This document shows, piece after piece, positions 17,337-21,771 of a stretch of 64,000 bases of DNA. The position numbers and the translations under genes were made by a program. The notes under the pieces were generated by a model. That model searched no databases, had not been told where the DNA came from, and saw nothing but the letters and a program-made list of their open reading frames with translations. The stretch comes from Prochlorococcus sp. AG-355-K03 (lineage in GTDB: Bacteria; Cyanobacteriota; Cyanobacteriia; PCC-6307; Cyanobiaceae): positions 124,001 through 188,000 of the forward strand of contig QCDS01000001.1 of assembly GCA_003278685.1 (NCBI GenBank). Reading direction: 5' to 3'. Each line of letters opens with the position of its first letter. The stretch's first letter is position 1.

Positions 17337-19133
17337 TTAATTTTGTAAATATCCTCTTGGAGTTAGAAATATTTCGTCAACTAAGGTTGTTTGAGAATTA
17401 CCAATAATAATGATTGATAACATATCAATCTCTTTAAAAGGAATGGTGTTTAAAGTAAAAAATTTTTTGGTTTGATTTTCTCTCCCTACTTGTCTAGCTA
17501 TTAAAACTGGAGTTTCACCATGCCTAGATTGTAAACATATATCAATTACACTTTTTAGCTGCCAATTTCTTTCAATGGATTGAGGATTAAATAAAGCTAT
17601 TACAAAGTCACCCACAAGAGCTCCTTCAATTCTTTTTTCTATTAAAGACCATGGAGTTAATTTATCGCTTAAGCTTACTGAACAAAAGTCATTCATTAGT
17701 GGTGCTCCACTAATCGCAGCAGCTAATTGAACGCTACTTATACCTGGATGAACTTCAAAGTAAGGTCTATATTCTTTTTTGATTTTTTGAAGTAATTCTA
17801 AAAGTAAACCTGCCATTCCATAAAATCCAGATTCACCTGAAGAAATTAAAGCCACTTTTATTCCTTCCTCAGCTAGTTTAATTGCTTTACTGCATCTCTC
17901 TTTTTCTTCAGTAAGTTTACTTTCAATTAAAATCTGATCATTCCTTTTTAAGGGTTTTATTAAATCTAAATACATTTTGTATCCAATCCAAACAATACAT
18001 CTTGAAAGTGCTTTTCTTGCATTATTGGTTAGGAAGGAGATATCACCAGGCCCACTTCCAATAATATGAATTTCGCCATGAGTTGGATTATATTGATTTT
18101 TTGATTCTGATATAGCGATAGTTACTGCCCCAGATTGATTTTTAAAAATTCTTTTTTCTTCTAGTAATTTTGATTTTTCTCCTGCTGCGAGTAAGCAAGA
18201 GGCTTCTGCTACGGAAGGGGTGCCAATTTCATTTTGCACAATATTTGATGGATTTGGAACAATTATTTTTGAAAGATCTTCTTTACTAAAAAACTTTAAA
18301 GGCAAGTTTTTTTCTTTAGCAAGTTCTAAAATTCCTTTCTCATTTTTTTTAATATCAATAGTTGCCAATCCCGCAATTGATTGCTGAGATAAATTTTCTG
18401 ACTCAAAAAAATTATTTAAAGAATTTGTTATTAATTCTTTGCTTGTATTTCTTTCACATCCAATACCAACCCATAATACGGGCGGGTGCCAAGTTGTTTC
18501 ATGATTTTCGAATATACTCACATAAAATGTTGAATCTGGTTTTTTTGTTTCTTTTTTATCAATTTGATTTATATTCTTAGCTGATTCTGAAGTTTTCCAT
18601 AAGTTATTACCAAATAATTGTTTGCAAAATATTTCTTCCTTCTTAGCTTGTTTAATTACTAGTTTTGACCAATCGTTTATTTTGCCTGATCTTTCCCAAC
18701 CCCATTGATTTCCAAATGCATCAAGATTTAAGAGGCTTTGATCATTTGAATTGTTAGTTTCTATAATTTCGCCACCAAGTAAATTAGCAATTTGATATGC
18801 AATATTTTGCGTATTTGACTGATGTAAGCCAATTAAAGGAACTATCTTGGAACATTTGTTATCTATAACTATTACTCCTGGATCTTGATCTTTAGAGGTT
18901 AAAAATGAATTTATTATGCGTATTGATGCAGCAATTGAGCCTATAAAAATTATTAGATCTATCTCCGGCCATTTTTTTAGTAAGATTTCTCTAGGTTTTT
19001 GTACTTTAATAAGTTCATTTACATCCTCTTTTGAAGAATCTGCAATATATATGTCTTTGACAAATTCAGTTTTTTTAAGCCTTTTTAAAATTTCTTTTGA
19101 ATTATTAGATAGACCTATCGCAATGCCTTTCAA
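17337..19133 (-). CDS. cobJ: Bifunctional CbiG-like / precorrin-3B C17-methyltransferase (CobJ/CbiH) fusion
   Basis: N-term CbiG-like (WVGIGCERNTSKELI..., GLATIDIKKNE); C-term tetrapyrrole methylase (IHIIGSGPGDISFLT, LISSGESGFYGMAGLLLE, VHPGISSVQLAAA). Confidence 0.9.
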   Translation of the reverse strand: MKGIAIGLSNNSKEILKRLKKTEFVKDIYIADSSKEDVNELIKVQKPREILLKKWPEIDLIIFIGSIAASIRIINSFLTSKDQDPGVIVIDNKCSKIVPLIGLHQSNTQNIAYQIANLLGGEIIETNNSNDQSLLNLDAFGNQWGWERSGKINDWSKLVIKQAKKEEIFCKQLFGNNLWKTSESAKNINQIDKKETKKPDSTFYVSIFENHETTWHPPVLWVGIGCERNTSKELITNSLNNFFESENLSQQSIAGLATIDIKKNEKGILELAKEKNLPLKFFSKEDLSKIIVPNPSNIVQNEIGTPSVAEASCLLAAGEKSKLLEEKRIFKNQSGAVTIAISESKNQYNPTHGEIHIIGSGPGDISFLTNNARKALSRCIVWIGYKMYLDLIKPLKRNDQILIESKLTEEKERCSKAIKLAEEGIKVALISSGESGFYGMAGLLLELLQKIKKEYRPYFEVHPGISSVQLAAAISGAPLMNDFCSVSLSDKLTPWSLIEKRIEGALVGDFVIALFNPQSIERNWQLKSVIDICLQSRHGETPVLIARQVGRENQTKKFFTLNTIPFKEIDMLSIIIIGNSQTTLVDEIFLTPRGYLQN

Positions 19134-19358
19134 ATTAGAAACTATTGATAGTAACTTTCAAATTATATCTTGTCGCTGGATTTAAAAAATTTTCTTTGAA
19201 ATATAAAAAAAAATTTAAGAAATTTATATAAATTTTGAGTAAATATACTCATAATTCAGTCATAGACTAGAATTTAACAAAATATTCATATAGTAACAAT
19301 CATTAGAACATTTGTTACGTTAATGCATAACGAAAGAATCTTTGCCTTATTATTTTTG

Positions 19359-19437
19359 AAACGAATATCTAAAGTTCCGAAGGATTCGTTTTCTTGAACA
19401 TTATCATTAAAAATAAGTTCAAGATCCGATCAATCGG
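19359..19437 (+). promoter_or_regulatory. Structured psaAB 5' leader: three successive inverted repeats
   Basis: AAACGAAT-17-ATTCGTTT, TCTTGAAC-17-GTTCAAGA, CCGAT-2-ATCGG in immediate succession. Confidence 0.7.
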
Positions 19438-19467
19438 CTTTAATGTCAATTATTTTCGAGGTGCTAG

Positions 19468-21771
19468 ATGACCATCAGCCCACCAGAAAGTGGAGAAAAA
19501 AACAAAAAAGTTTTGGAAGCTCCTGTCAAGGCCGATCCAAGACCTATTGATTTTGCCAAATTAGATAAGCCAGGTTTCTGGTCAAGTAAATTATCTAAAG
19601 GTCCAAAAACTACAACTTGGATCTGGAATTTGCATGCTGATGCACATGATTTCGATGTGCATACAGGCGATGCTGAAGAAGCAACAAGAAAAATCTTTTC
19701 AGCTCATTTTGGACATCTTGCAGTCATTTTTATATGGATGAGTGCTGCTTTTTTCCATGGTGCAAGATTTTCTAATTACTCAGGTTGGTTAGCTGATCCA
19801 ACTCATGTTAAACCCGGAGCTCAGCAGGTATGGGCAATCGTTGGTCAAGAAATGCTTAACGCTGACCTTGGTGCTAACTACAACGGTATTCAAATTAGTT
19901 CAGGAATATTTCACATGTGGCGAGCATGGGGAATCACTAACGAGAGTGAACTTATGGCTTTGGCAATAGGTGCTGTTGTAATGGCTGCACTTATGCTTCA
20001 TGCTGGAATTTTTCATTATCACAAAGCAGCTCCAAAAATGGAGTGGTTTCAAGATATTGAGTCTATGCTTAACCACCACATAGCTGGTTTAGTAGGTTTA
20101 GGATCTTTAGCATGGGCTGGCCATTGTATTCATATCGGAGCTCCTACTGCAGCTCTCTTAGATGCAATTGATGCAGGCTCTCCCTTAGTTATTAATGGAA
20201 AAGAAATAGCAACTATTGCAGATATGCCTATGCCGCATCAGCTCTGCGATCCACAAATTATCGGTCAGATTTTTCCAGGATTAGCAAGTGGTACAGGTAA
20301 TTTCTTTAGTTTAAATTGGTTAGCTTTCTCAGACTTCCTTACTTTCAAGGGTGGATTAAACCCTGTGACAGGAAGCTTGTGGATGACTGATGTTTCACAT
20401 CATCATTTAGCTTTTGGTGTAATAGCAATAATCGGTGGTCATATGTACAGAACCAACTACGGTATTGGTCATAGCATGAAAGAAATATTAGATTCACAAC
20501 AAGGAGACCCAATATTATTCCCTGCGCCTAAAGGTCATCAAGGTCTTTTTGAGTTCATGGCAGAGAGTAGACATGCGCAGCTTTCGGTAAACCTAGCGAT
20601 GCTTGGATCAATAAGCATACTTGTATCTCATCACATGTATGCGATGCCTCCATATCCTTATATAGCTACTGACTACATGACAGTACTTGGATTATTTACC
20701 CATCACATGTGGATAGGTGGATTGTTCATAGTAGGAGCAGGTGCGCATGCTGGAATTGCAATGGTTAGAGATTACGATCCAGCAAAACATATTGACAATG
20801 TATTAGACAGAATTCTTAAGGCAAGAGATGCTTTAATCAGTCACTTGAACTGGGTATGTATGTGGTTAGGATTCCATAGTTTTGGACTCTATATTCACAA
20901 CGATACTATGAGAGCTTTGGGTAGACCTCAAGATATGTTTAGTGATTCTGCAATCCAACTTCAGCCAATTTTTGCTCAATGGGTGCAGAGTATTCAAGCA
21001 TCTGCTGTTGGAACTTCCCTTTTAGCGGGTACTGCAGAAGCTTTACCTCACAAAGCTTTAAGTGAAGTTTTTAATGGAAGTTTAGTAGAAGTTGGTGGGA
21101 AGGTAGCTATAGCGCCAATTCCATTAGGGACTGCTGATTTAATGATTCATCATATTCATGCTTTCCAAATACATGTAACTGTTTTGATACTTCTCAAAGG
21201 AGTACTTTATGCAAGAAGTTCAAGGTTGATTCCTGATAAAGCTTCTTTAGGATTTAGATTTCCTTGTGATGGTCCTGGAAGAGGTGGTACATGTCAAGTT
21301 TCTTCATGGGATCACGTTTTCTTGGCTCTCTTCTGGATGTATAACTGTTTATCTATAGTTATTTTCCACTTCTCTTGGAAAATGCAGAGTGATGTTTGGG
21401 GACTCACTGGTGGTAATTTCGCACAAAGTTCAATTACTATCAATGGTTGGTTAAGAGATTTCCTCTGGGCTCAAGCTTCTCAAGTATTAACAAGCTATGG
21501 TCAATCAATAAGCATGTACGGTTTGATGTTCTTAGGAGCTCACTTTATATGGGCGTTCAGTTTAATGTTCCTCTTCAGCGGAAGAGGATATTGGCAAGAA
21601 TTGTTCGAGTCAATTGTTTGGGCGCATAATAAACTAAAGGTTGCACCAACCATTCAACCTCGAGCTCTATCTATTACTCAGGGACGTGCAGTAGGTGTTA
21701 CACACTTCCTTGTAGGTGGTATTGCTACCACATGGGCCTTCTTCCATGCTCGCCTTTTCGGGCTGGGCTAA
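19468..21771 (+). CDS. psaA: Photosystem I P700 apoprotein A1
   Basis: 767 aa; [29 protein letters not shown] 4Fe-4S motif. Confidence 0.99.

Follow-up and report, generated by a model that had tools for sequence, protein, structure and literature searches.

The window analysed here, a stretch of 64,000 nucleotides from Prochlorococcus sp. AG-355-K03, the ocean's most abundant photosynthetic cell being a Prochlorococcus, contains the psaAB operon, which encodes the core proteins of photosystem I (Table 1). The psaA ATG lies at 19468, and the ORF that follows psaA was taken to be psaB from the established psaAB gene order. The ORF that diverges from psaA shows by eye a likeness to a cobalamin-biosynthesis (CbiG/CobJ-like) fusion, which it may encode. 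The promoter and the leader of psaAB lie in the intergenic region before psaA.

Table 1. Features of the psaAB locus, with positions counted from the first nucleotide of the window.
Feature	Position	Strand	Basis
Long ORF, divergent from psaA and upstream of it	17337-19133	-	ORF
TTTGTTAC, lying within AGAACATTTGTTAC; conserved upstream element of the promoter, at about -48 to -41	19311-19318	+	Spacing alignment
Putative -10 box TATTAT (TATGCT in sister genera)	19348-19353	+	Alignment by spacing
Predicted start of the RNA, with AAACGA as a single-stranded tail; also in the 5' arm of hairpin 1	19359-19364	+	Promoter alignment; unpaired in minimum-energy fold
P1, 5' strand, ATAT-c-TAAAG; joined with 19438-19446	19365-19374	+	Fold; covariation
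P2 CCGA (19377-19380, joined with 19434-19437) and P3 GAT (19383-19385) and CG (19387-19388), the P3 segment 19383-19388 being joined with 19427-19431; 5' strands	19377-19388	+	Fold; covariation
Tip hairpin (hairpin 2), 8 bp and four more pairs (19401-19404 with 19413-19416), 8-nt loop	19392-19424	+	Sequence; fold; covariation
P3 CGATC (19427-19431) and P2 TCGG (19434-19437), 3' strands; overlaps hairpin 3	19427-19437	+	Fold; covariation
P1, 3' strand, CTTTAATGT	19438-19446	+	Fold; covariation
Ribosome-binding segment CAATTATTTTCGAGGTGCTAG; Shine-Dalgarno GAGG at 19458-19461	19447-19467	+	Near-invariance in close relatives
psaA, photosystem I core protein, 767 aa	19468-21771	+	ORF; protein 91-100% identical to the PsaA encoded in Prochlorococcus records
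psaB, photosystem I core protein, 742 aa	21799-24027	+	ORF 27 nt after psaA

The promoter was placed by its spacing. A GTTAC followed, after exactly 29 nt, by TANNNT is found at 221 of 254 psaA loci, including those of sister genera, which have TATGCT as the hexamer. Because of this conserved spacing, we infer that transcription starts at about 19359-19361, within 1-2 nt of 19359, the first base of the first inverted repeat described below. A generic sigma-70 scan does not pick up the box at 19348-19353, since a consensus -35 element is absent. The longer arrangement, AGAACATTTGTTAC (from 19304), 29 nt and a -10-like hexamer ending at 19353, is common to the psaA promoters of many genera. At about -45, TTTGTTAC is similar to one half of the HLR1 consensus of RpaB (KTTACAWW, minus-strand reading) and is by this likeness a putative RpaB site.

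The original prediction had described a train of three hairpins in this region and had proposed a structured RNA leader of psaAB. The repeats themselves were found where they had been described: AAACGAAT (19359-19366) and ATTCGTTT (19384-19391) form a perfect 8-bp inverted repeat with a 17-nt spacer (hairpin 1), which is abutted by a second perfect 8-bp repeat, also with a 17-nt spacer, of TCTTGAAC (19392-19399) and GTTCAAGA (19417-19424; hairpin 2), and the palindrome CCGAT-CA-ATCGG (hairpin 3) occupies 19426-19437, before the psaA ATG. Single repeats of this kind are ordinary in the AT-rich window, which has 80 perfect 8-bp inverted repeats with loops of 3-25 nt, against a mean of 58 per shuffled window. 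The abutting pair is the sole one in the whole window; 20 shuffled windows gave one altogether (about 0.05 expected per window), and shuffling the 281-nt intergenic region 5000 times produced such a pair 10 times. The spacer lengths differ among relatives, so the equal 17-nt spacers have no further meaning.

When the sequence is cut at 19439, the segment 19357-19439 folds into the three hairpins as drawn, at -18.8 kcal/mol. The minimum-energy fold of 19359-19449 is a different one, a single long imperfect hairpin (hereafter the rod), at -21.1 kcal/mol (z -3.55, with none of 200 shuffles equally stable). In the rod, 19365-19388 pairs with 19427-19446 across hairpin 2, which becomes the tip, and the closing pairing spans 19365-19380 with 19434-19446; the strands of hairpins 1 and 3 are thus used in the rod instead of in local hairpins. 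We conclude that the psaAB mRNA leader, about 109 nt from approximately 19359, probably forms this rod. A stable pseudoknot of hairpin 1 with P1 appears sterically feasible but would cost P2 and P3.

Over 200 loci in the genus supplied leaders, of which 33 divergent ones, belonging to ten groups, were kept; in the alignment, the most distant of them is 43% identical to the window. Nearly all 33 have the rod as their minimum-energy fold, and the representatives of the ten groups fold with z between -1.8 and -4.9. Long-range pairing lowers the energy in 33/33 leaders, by 0.6 to 13 kcal/mol. Because folding a leader as a whole cannot give a poorer energy than folding it in two parts, the comparison was made with chimeras in which the 3' part had been swapped in from another group: the true 5'/3' pairs gain -6.4 kcal/mol, versus -4.2 for the permuted chimeras (p 0.00016).

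RNAalifold returned no consensus structure on a plain MAFFT alignment of the 33 leaders, since the groups are shifted against one another by indels, and it was replaced by averaged pair probabilities, explicit pair counts and alignment-free cis/trans tests. On alignment A1, with a structure laid on by hand and set after the folds had been seen, none of 500 shuffles reached the covariation score of P1, of P2/P3 or of the tip, and each of these scores peaks at slide 0. These shuffles leave the relatedness of the leaders in place, which is why the group-wise tests matter; the cis/trans test gave p 0.0001 for P1, 0.0001 for the tip and 0.05 for P2/P3, P2 and P3 having less support than the tip and P1. 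The same picture came from another alignment, made of 40 matches to the model, which was itself fitted to the structure and leans towards the rod. Taken together, these computations show that the pairing of the rod is conserved through compensatory change; among close relatives no double changes were seen, which counts against the rod.

The three local hairpins fare unequally in the same comparison. Compensatory change across strains, which the original prediction had proposed to look for, is clear in hairpin 2, the tip of the rod, as a strongly conserved pairing; hairpins 1 and 3 are without covariation, their scores being reached by 463 and 332 of 500 shuffles, respectively. Arms changed without compensation in relatives, named by the original prediction as counter-evidence to itself, are mostly what hairpin 1 displays: among 70 distinct close relatives, 21 of 26 changed cells break its pairing. 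Thus only the middle hairpin of the train is backed by covariation. That the train as first drawn acts as a 5' stability element is therefore very unlikely in our judgement, in spite of its perfect arms in the window and its folding as drawn when cut at 19439, given hairpins 1 and 3 and the fact that the rod is the better fold in every one of the 33 leaders tested. The broader claim of a structured psaAB leader is borne out, by a covarying fold and by a predicted start at the first base of hairpin 1.

The wobble pairs bear on whether there is an RNA function at all. With the structure assigned by hand, the rod has 119 G-U pairs and 55 A-C mismatches, an excess that selection on the sense RNA strand would produce, versus 13 and 14 in hairpin 1. 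If the repeats were sites for proteins on the DNA, or had arisen by chance in AT-rich sequence, their abundance in the window and the position of the leader beside a conserved promoter would be accounted for; the sequence is however replaced while the pairing stays, with G-U pairs of the sense strand, and the repeats lie downstream of the predicted start, so that we consider this the least probable of the explanations weighed here.

Hairpin 1 could still have a part of its own. In a two-state leader, hairpin 1 (19359-19391) would form first during transcription and be displaced by P1 when 19438-19446 emerges, the balance between the two being a regulatory or timing step. Hairpin 1 is perfect in the window, survives in part in most groups, among them as AACCAA/TTGGTT variants, and in the window its fold and that of the rod differ by about 3 kcal/mol; the 5' segment of sister-genus leaders has a covarying local partner (p 0.0001, cis/trans test). 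The cis/trans test for hairpin 1 itself gave p 0.32 when all groups were used, 0.11 with seven groups and 0.03 with five, the last being a weak value from a subset selected after the fact. The lack of covariation over all groups and the loss of hairpin 1 in the most divergent ones speak against two states, and the conservation of its arms could be explained otherwise, the 3' arm being in P3 and the 5' arm in the initial transcribed region. We regard such a leader as unlikely, and retain the rod as the preferred structure.

In the genomes sampled, the rod is specific to the psaA leader of this genus. Searched with a covariance model of the rod, this genome has a single match, at the psaA leader, and none elsewhere; in a family sample, the model finds the psaA leader in 5/5 genomes of the genus, once per genome, and gives one weak unrelated match in the other 116 family genomes, with no psaA leader found in the other sampled genera. 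The weak match (G233, 30.9 bits) falls within an unrelated ORF or at its border, away from psaA, and was rejected. A cyanophage origin was likewise rejected, two IMG/VR contigs alone carrying psaA and neither having a rod match; in one of them (L301 1-180), psaA is 65% identical and is preceded by a different upstream sequence.

A psaA RNA is already known from cyanobacteria (RF01752; Weinberg et al. 2010, PMC2864571), and the original prediction had raised the question whether this leader was that motif or a divergent form. The Rfam covariance model found no match in 18000-20500 even at E 10, its threshold of 50 bits not being reached. Among 291 genomes of the class, RF01752 matches 22, all in this family and none in this genus; its hosts are sister genera (marine Synechococcus-like and some Prochlorococcus-like), in which it covers the whole leader. 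The two RNAs are alike in being psaAB 5' leaders of the same cyanobacterial family, with the same promoter and reaching the start codon; the long-range helix that the Rfam consensus draws near its ends, where the rod has P1, may be a further likeness. They differ in size and fold. RF01752 is about 190 nt long and has three hairpins, often with UNCG loops (PMC2864571), and a Shine-Dalgarno hairpin, whereas the leader described here is a single rod with one tip hairpin and has an 8-nt loop and no UNCG loop. In the sister leaders, the fold consists of a local hairpin on the 5' side, another in the middle, a third formed by GGTGG/CCACC and a last one over the Shine-Dalgarno; the CCUCGA partner for this last one is present in sister genera and absent from the leaders of this genus. 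Without a model match, with another fold and without a Shine-Dalgarno hairpin, the leader falls outside RF01752; it may nonetheless perform the same task.

Descent is a separate matter: the leader may be a reduced descendant of RF01752, with the same function and a simplified fold. The two share the operon, the promoter layout and their place in the message, which runs from +1 and stops just short of the Shine-Dalgarno; the RF01752 scores drop stepwise across sister genera, from about 200 to 20 bits (202, 149, 90, 41, 29, 29 and 20 bits on single loci, some below threshold); and RF01752 too draws a long-range helix closing the leader. That helix is however without covariation in a coarse cis/trans test (p 0.16), in contrast to the covarying P1 of the rod. 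No RF01752 match occurs in the genomes of this genus that were scanned, the local hairpins of sister leaders, with that over the Shine-Dalgarno, make a different fold, and a common sequence origin is not demonstrated. We consider descent a tentative possibility. The leader is best read as an undescribed, lineage-specific structured RNA that stands in place of the psaA RNA.

Further observations were made on the leaders of neighbouring genera. In sister-genus leaders with RF01752 matches (L232-L253), the 5' strand GGUCCCCU has two possible partners, a nearby local copy, GGGGCC, and a distal one, AGGGGUGGCC; the distal copy also pairs with CCACC, next to which CCUCGA can pair with the Shine-Dalgarno UCGAGG. 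Going by these complementarities, the known psaA RNA of sister genera is possibly a two-state switch. Another genus (g4; L215, L216) has a psaA leader of about 57 nt, with the same promoter and 3' hairpins only. A more far-reaching, and quite improbable, proposal is that the leader is bistable in both lineages: the segment after the start would pair locally (hairpin 1) or as P1, light, redox state or transcription speed would pick the expression state of psaAB, and sister genera would make an equivalent choice by means of different sequences.

Other photosystem genes of marine cyanobacteria or cyanophage also have candidate structured RNAs, none of which reached E 10 in a cmscan of 18000-20500. 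An attenuator based on an intrinsic terminator was ruled out, there being no terminator-like site in 19150-19520 and no poly-U after the stem. An upstream ORF, with its ATG at 19443 in TTTAATGTC, was discarded since it is not kept in relatives (AAGGTC, AGGGTC).

As for the role of the rod, it likely controls the stability or the translation of the psaAB mRNA, on which it would act in cis. The message would start at about 19359 with a 6-nt single-stranded 5' tail, and the rod that follows would end directly before the AU-rich ribosome-binding segment, in which 1 of 21 sites is variable among the 70 distinct close relatives. In Synechocystis, AU-rich segments in the 5' UTRs of psbA messages are targets of RNase E in the dark (PMC10989914). 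For this reason, and given the near-invariant AU-rich segment here, we propose that the rod most likely maintains the 5' portion of the leader in a double-stranded form that RNase E would not reach, while presenting the AU-rich segment and the Shine-Dalgarno as a defined landing site; shielding the one and positioning the other, it would set mRNA lifetime and translation. The psbA2/psbA3 5' UTR with its AU-box resembles this leader in belonging to a photosystem message and in having an AU-rich segment beside the Shine-Dalgarno, a likeness judged by eye; the psbA2 leader differs in being 49 nt long. In longer folds, the ribosome-binding segment and the start codon can pair with the first psaA codons (19452-19495; GGUG with CACC, GAU with AUC), so that the landing site may not be open. 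Light dependence of the rod could possibly come from a protein or small RNA that recognises the tip.

The rod is missing from the Rfam catalogue. In an RNA-seq study of Prochlorococcus MED4, the 5' UTRs were scanned against Rfam with no conserved element found, and unknown cis-regulatory sequences were suggested (PMC3898218). The rod, whose pairing is kept while identity drops to about 43%, is a tangible candidate for an element of this kind, and it makes the question of whether photosystem I is tuned post-transcriptionally in Prochlorococcus directly testable. Nor is this genus merely without the psaA RNA of sister genera: another fold takes its place.
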